Source: Nitrospira sp. | Lineage (GTDB): Bacteria > Nitrospirota > Nitrospiria > Nitrospirales > UBA8639 | Length of the DNA: 40,785 nucleotides | Reading direction: 5' to 3' | Assembly (NCBI GenBank): GCA_028819435.1 | Contig: JAPPLK010000072.1 | Coordinates: 1 to 40,785, forward strand | Part shown: piece by piece, positions 117 to 290 of the stretch | Numbering within the stretch: the stretch's first letter is position 1 | How the letters are laid out: each line of letters starts with the position of its first letter | Notes under the pieces: model-generated | Told to the model about the DNA's origin: nothing | What the model saw: only the letters and a program-made list of their open reading frames with translations | Databases searched by the model: none | Made by a program: the position numbers and the translations under genes

Positions 117-290
117 TACTTTATTCATCACTAGAGCTAGAGCCGACCAGCCCGGCCCTCCTGCGGGTTTCCAAGCCCGATTGTAAGCGTGGTGCGTTCG
201 GCTCCTCAGCCTCTCGGCAGCCCGCACAGTTGCCTGGGCCGGATGAGCCCGTATCAATGGCAAGGCCGGGCGTCTTGGGAGAGGCAGGCC
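117..290 (+). ncRNA. IS110 bridge RNA (target and donor guide RNA)
   Basis: Two internal loops can be read in the left end. Target loop: outer stem GCCGA/TCGGC, left guide CCCTCCT (156-162), capping hairpin CGGG/CCCG, right guide TTGTAAG (181-187). The left guide equals the top strand of the target up to and including the CT core, and the right guide is the exact complement of CTTACAA (1274-1280). Donor loop: outer stem GCCTCTC (209-215)/GAGAGGC (279-285), inner stem GCCCG (220-224)/CGGGC (267-271), left guide ACAGTTGC (226-233) equal to the element's right end at 1267-1274, cap GGGC/GCCC, and a CAAG (261-264) complementary to core plus left end (CTTG, 85-88). The RNA ends are estimates: the start comes from the promoter spacing, the end from the last stem. 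Confidence 0.85.

Follow-up and report, generated by a model that had tools for sequence, protein, structure and literature searches.

Does the non-coding left end of an IS110-family insertion sequence in a Nitrospirales-type genome encode a bridge RNA, and can the guides of this RNA be read against the site in which the element sits? The window, i.e. the whole stretch of 40,785 nucleotides analysed here, holds such an element at its left edge. We are very confident that it is an IS621-type element of the IS110 group whose left end encodes a bridge RNA and which was inserted, under the guidance of this RNA, at the CT of a dispersed repeat.

The element and its insertion site

The insertion sequence spans positions 87-1273 and is bordered by the core dinucleotide CT at 85-86 and 1274-1275. 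The unit including one CT core is 1189 bp long, and 222 bp of non-coding left end lie upstream of the recombinase gene. The features of the element and its target are as follows.

61-100, plus strand: left insertion flank, with the 5' part of the repeat unit (CTCTACCTCCCCTCACCCCTC, about 64-84), the core CT (85-86) and the element start TGTATC from 87
87-1273, plus strand: body of the IS110-family element, with left end (87-308), recombinase gene and right end (1260-1273)
104-109, plus strand: putative -10 box TATACT, read from the sequence only, by analogy with the promoter at the IS621 RE-LE junction (PMC11208160)
309-1259, plus strand: IS110 recombinase of 316 aa, with Ala at residue 100 in place of the Asp (IS621 D105) shared by all 12 relatives in the alignment
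1267-1290, plus strand: right end ACAGTTG, core CT (1274-1275) and right target half TACAAAGGAGGGG
6875-6893, plus strand: further exact copy of the target core CCCTCCTTACAAAGGAGGG, found also at 10287-10305 and, with one mismatch, at 4134-4152

The layout across the element is CACCCCTC-CT, then TGTATC ... recombinase ... CTCCAGACAGTTG, then CT-TACAAAGGAGGGGC. When the flanks are joined over one CT they give CTCTACCTCCCCTCACCCCTCCTTACAAAGGAGGGG, a repeat unit that is present at many places in the same genome. The unit of the left flank likewise occurs at many other genomic places, and it is uninterrupted in the congeneric genome G008, where the intact repeat comes after the end of the same upstream gene (...GAAACCGTAAATGCCTCTACCTCCCCTCGCCCCTCCTTACAAAGGAGGGGAACT). 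The G008 locus is the matching empty site, and it shows that the element entered at the CT core with no further alteration. The right side of the G008 locus departs from the window just past the repeat, so the case for orthology is made by the left flank together with the repeat. In three genomes (G003, G004 and G012) the gene neighbours are as in the window, but neither the repeat nor the element is present. The long left end, the CT core at both ends and the scarless insertion are those of an IS110-group element of the IS621 type. An open frame of 393 aa on the minus strand opposite the element (window 66-1247) is presumably a mechanical by-product of a GC-rich gene.

The original prediction described the programmed target as a palindromic repeat present elsewhere in the window, and this is what we find. 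The 19-bp core of the repeat has 105 exact copies in the genome (backward control, 0) and is present in 11 of the 14 genomes of the genus; within the window it is exact at 6875 and 10287 and has one mismatch at 4134, where shuffling gives an expectation of 0. A link to a REP-associated transposase was sought, and one weak Y1_Tnp match was found elsewhere in the genome; since no target repeats lie beside it, we do not connect the two. Another dispersed repeat, CCCCCTCACCCCGCCCTCTCCCACCGGGGGAGAGGG, lies at about 1778-1815 of the window and recurs many times in most of the genus's genomes; it shares a common start, CCCCTCACCC, with the target repeat.

The bridge RNA and its guides

The RNA-coding part of the left end can be divided into the following features.

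117-290, plus strand: bridge RNA, ends approximate, supported by the covariance hit and by compensatory pairs; the conserved two-loop part is 139-273
140-204, plus strand: target-binding loop, closing stem 140-146/198-204, inner hairpin 164-179
154-162, plus strand: left target guide GGCCCTCCT, of which the CCCTCCT part matches the target
181-187, plus strand: right target guide TTGTAAG, complement of CTTACAA (1274-1280)
188, plus strand: handshake position, corresponding to IS621 nt 81, where a C pairs with the G at donor position 7
209-285, plus strand: donor-binding loop, closing stems 209-215/279-285 and 220-224/267-271, inner hairpin 236-239/247-250
226-233, plus strand: left donor guide ACAGTTGC, identical to 1267-1274, follows the donor variants
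253-264 (253-254, 260 and 261-264), plus strand: split right donor guide AT...G.CAAG, placed by applying the register of the IS621 structure to the alignment

The four guide matches that had been proposed from the sequence are present letter for letter. CCCTCCT at 156-162 equals the target at 80-86, and when the left target guide is read in the 9-nt register of IS621 it matches at 7 of 9 positions. The right donor guide had been given as CAAG (261-264); this match to the reverse complement of CTTG (85-88), i.e. the core CT and the two bases with which the left end begins, stands, but the guide is longer and is split, as in the IS621 structure from which its register was taken (PMC11208158), with five looped-out bases in the window as opposed to two in IS621. 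A joint architecture score, which requires both target guides and both donor guides in fixed order and spacing, reached 26 of 27 for the left end of the window; the mean of 2000 dinucleotide shuffles was 18.3 (sd 1.1) and their maximum 23.

The fold was derived as a consensus from an alignment of fourteen relatives, except for the outermost stem of the donor loop, which comes from reading the sequence. A target loop is followed by a donor loop, both of them having a closing stem and a capping hairpin, and the guides lie in the internal loops as had been suggested. Loss of the loop stems had been named beforehand as a possible refutation; the stems are in fact kept, with compensatory changes at 15 of 24 pairs. 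In the alignment 96.7% of the cells are paired, as opposed to 33-45% in slid controls, and these statistics were computed without the guide positions. The fold of the single sequence was no more stable than its shuffles (z=-0.5) and was partly wrong, i.e. the structure is visible only in the alignment of the relatives.

The covariance search that the original prediction had called for gave a clear answer. A model trained on ten relatives, none of them from Nitrospirota, has a single hit in the 40.8-kb window, at 139-273 (73.5 bits, E=1.5e-14), and it finds the same RNA in two related elements of the genus, L031 (genome G010) and L032 (genome G009). Covariance model hits were obtained in 5 of the 14 genomes of the genus, at seven places in all. 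Rfam gave no match anywhere in the window, with no family at the gathering threshold.

We note that further IS110 bridge RNAs occur in these genomes. The genome of the window carries a second, different one (L182, G000:C66:18149-18277, minus strand), whose recombinase fragment is about 36% identical over residues 5-102. G012 also has a second IS110 type (L186 and L181); L186 (G012:C1:2106141-2106269) sits in the site GAGATC-CT-TCGCT, which its own guides GAGATCCT and AGCGAAG match.

Guides, sites and donors among the relatives

The matches in the window might have another origin: the recombinase, or the hairpin shape of the repeat, could pick the site, and the guide matches would then be coincidental or a consequence of the C/T-richness shared by the left end and the repeat. 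The relatives allow the two readings to be separated, and it had been predicted that guide changes among them would track their insertion sites. In a cross-phylum test the ends were set solely by the donor motif and the guide positions solely by the covariance alignment. The right target guide matched its own flank at 6.81 of 7 positions on average (37 elements, 30 of them perfect) and swapped flanks at 3.44; for the left target guide the values were 6.39 of 9 (38 elements) and 4.17. None of 20,000 permutations reached the observed mean for either guide; the rows are in part non-independent, i.e. some elements have near-identical guides, and the swapped control holds the same rows. An earlier covariation test in which the guide positions were free gave the same answer.

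Close relatives within the genus make this tendency visible. In L032 the right guide TTATCAG goes with the site CTGATAA, in the window TTGTAAG goes with CTTACAA, and in L031 the left guide ...TCCCCT goes with TATCCC-CT; the left-guide pairing at the L031 and L032 sites comprises only 6 positions. Six left ends of the multicopy variant in G010 read CCTCCCCT, all of them fitting its left guide CTCCCCT, and seven of its eight right ends read CTTACAA, the complement of its TTGTAAG, the remaining one being CTTGCAA. The element in G009 uses the repeat variant CCCCCTGATAAGGGGG, which occurs 16 times in that genome, once immediately next to the insertion. One right end of the multicopy element (L160, at the end of G010:C18) adjoins TTACAACTCCGGG, possibly as an off-repeat insertion; this sequence is not a palindrome arm, yet the guide match is 7 of 7. 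A broken copy in G006 (L185, G006:C57) has the target guides of the window; its left flank, CCTCCCCCA-T, neither contains the CT core nor fits the guide, which reflects either a decayed end or some other history. We also considered that guides might be matched to the most abundant repeat, and found no support: G010 and G009 each contain 21 window-type 19-mers, yet their elements use other variants.

Selection by shape draws on the palindromic setting of all three close relatives in spite of their differing letters, and on descriptions of IS elements recognising REP sequences that long predate any knowledge of guides (PMC1525189). It does not, however, account for the far lower scores of swapped flanks, which are equally C/T-rich, nor for the distant relatives, most of which sit in sites other than this palindrome and still match their own guides, nor for the G010 right end off the palindrome arm. 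We reject palindrome shape in place of guides as the selector on the basis of the swapped-flank controls together with the other kinds of site used by the relatives, and we consider site choice by recombinase or hairpin with chance or compositional guide matches to be extremely improbable.

The donor side behaves in the same manner. Across five donor variants, 36 of 38 elements have a left donor guide identical to their left donor. Two elements (L054 and L062) have a left end that starts CT-AGTAT, and their right donor guide has CTAG; the others have CAAG. In 37 of 38 elements the handshake base and donor position 7 form a Watson-Crick pair, in the remaining one a G-U pair; both elements that have A and not G as the donor base carry T as the handshake base. 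The second handshake position is Watson-Crick in 30 of 38. Pairing of the target guides involves both strands of the site, and guides and site covary; the donor guides likewise pair and covary with the RE-LE junction. Both sets of guides lie in an RNA with two internal loops, each of which carries a capping hairpin. Guided insertion through a left-end bridge RNA is well supported for the family, by ends, core, target, empty site, guide/site covariation and fold.

More tentatively, the IS110 lineage of this genus may retarget among subfamilies of palindromic repeats through a few guide letters (CCCTCC-CT-TACAA, CTCCC-CT-TACAA, CCCC-CT-GATAA), with element and repeat populations evolving together. 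The window copy, with a mutated recombinase and intact RNA and ends, could still be mobilised, or serve as an RNA donor, in trans; we hold this reading as a whole to be somewhat doubtful.

The recombinase, the proposed mechanism and known systems

The recombinase contains the RuvC-like DEDD domain (PF01548, 2.8e-19) and the Transposase_20 domain (PF02371, 7.7e-18) of the IS110 family, and it matches NF033542 with E=4.9e-57 (193.6 bits against a cutoff of 140 bits). Its only solved relatives are ISCro4 and IS621 (E about 1e-40), and only distant relatives, with 23-30% identity, were found on viral contigs. The serine of the Tnp domain is present (S235, IS621 S241) and is invariant in 13 aligned proteins. 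The catalytic set is incomplete: D11, E55 and D97 are kept and the fourth acid is Ala at position 100, a change that the original prediction missed while its main claim, a natural bridge RNA with a programmed target, holds. The window reads KTDALAAH, as against KTDTLDAH in L031 and KTDTLDAQ in L032. Mutation of the equivalent D105 abolishes recombination by IS621 (PMC11208158), so the window copy is probably not autonomous, i.e. by itself it is probably immobile, and its present mobility is doubtful. Codon 100 (window 606-608) is GCT, and since one base change, GAT to GCT, suffices, the Ala may be an assembly error.

The copy may therefore be a decayed, non-functional relic, once mobile, whose protein and RNA are now drifting. 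Besides the Ala, this is suggested by the single full copy of the element in its genome in spite of 105 exact target cores, and by 32 private amino-acid changes as against 19 in L031 and 13 in L032, although the window protein is also the most distant of the three. On the other hand, the reading frame is intact with a pairwise dN/dS of 0.17-0.21, and all guides and stems are intact. On balance we lean towards the relic. It is compatible with guided insertion, as it concerns the present state of the copy and not the mechanism.

The guided insertion may be pictured as follows. On excision the element would circularise, joining ACAGTTG-CT-TGTAT, as in IS621 (PMC11208160, PMC11208158). By analogy, TTGCTT across the joined ends would be a putative -35 box, 17 bp from TATACT, so that a promoter would span the circle junction. 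The bridge RNA would be transcribed and form a complex with the recombinase, again on the model of IS621. Its donor loop would pair with the circle junction and its target loop with CCCTCC-CT-TACAA inside the palindromic genome repeat. The recombinase would then exchange strands at the common CT, presumably through a serine linkage as in IS621, and nothing beyond the CT core would be lost or duplicated.

The locus clearly illustrates, in a natural setting, the bridge RNA insertion system that was described recently; it is not a new kind of system, and the window element leaves the known picture unchanged. In elements of Nitrospirales and Chloroflexota, remote from E. coli, it does independently confirm the bridge-RNA model with respect to both loops, the first handshake position and the split right donor guide. 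It also supplies several natural guide/target pairs and one empty site, and it adds a further phylum to those in which RNA guides direct insertion into palindromic repeats.

The left-end RNA, the CT core, the loop order, the donor sequence and the repeat target place the element with the IS621-type IS110 elements. The IS621 donor is near-identical to the window donor ACAGT..CTTGTAT. IS621 of E. coli (PMC11208160, PMC11208158) shares with it the IS110 recombinase, the left-end RNA with target loop and then donor loop, the CT core, the split right donor guide AU..G.CAAG, the handshake base and a palindromic-repeat target (REP elements in IS621). The recombinases are only distantly similar, however (E 9e-40 over residues 6-313), the window guides aim at the Nitrospirales repeat (CCCTCC-CT-TACAA) and not at the E. 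coli REP, the split guide has five unpaired bases as opposed to two, and the fourth catalytic acid is lost. ISCro4 (structure 9t56) is the best match among solved structures; it comes from a distant host, and the comparison covers its IS110 recombinase. IS1111-group elements with seekRNA are likewise RNA-guided DEDD transposases, but their non-coding region is usually downstream of the gene and their guide order is reversed (PMC11187229). ISPpu9, ISPpu10, ISPa11 and ISRm19 likewise insert specifically into an extragenic palindromic repeat, in other hosts, and were described before guides were known (PMC1525189).
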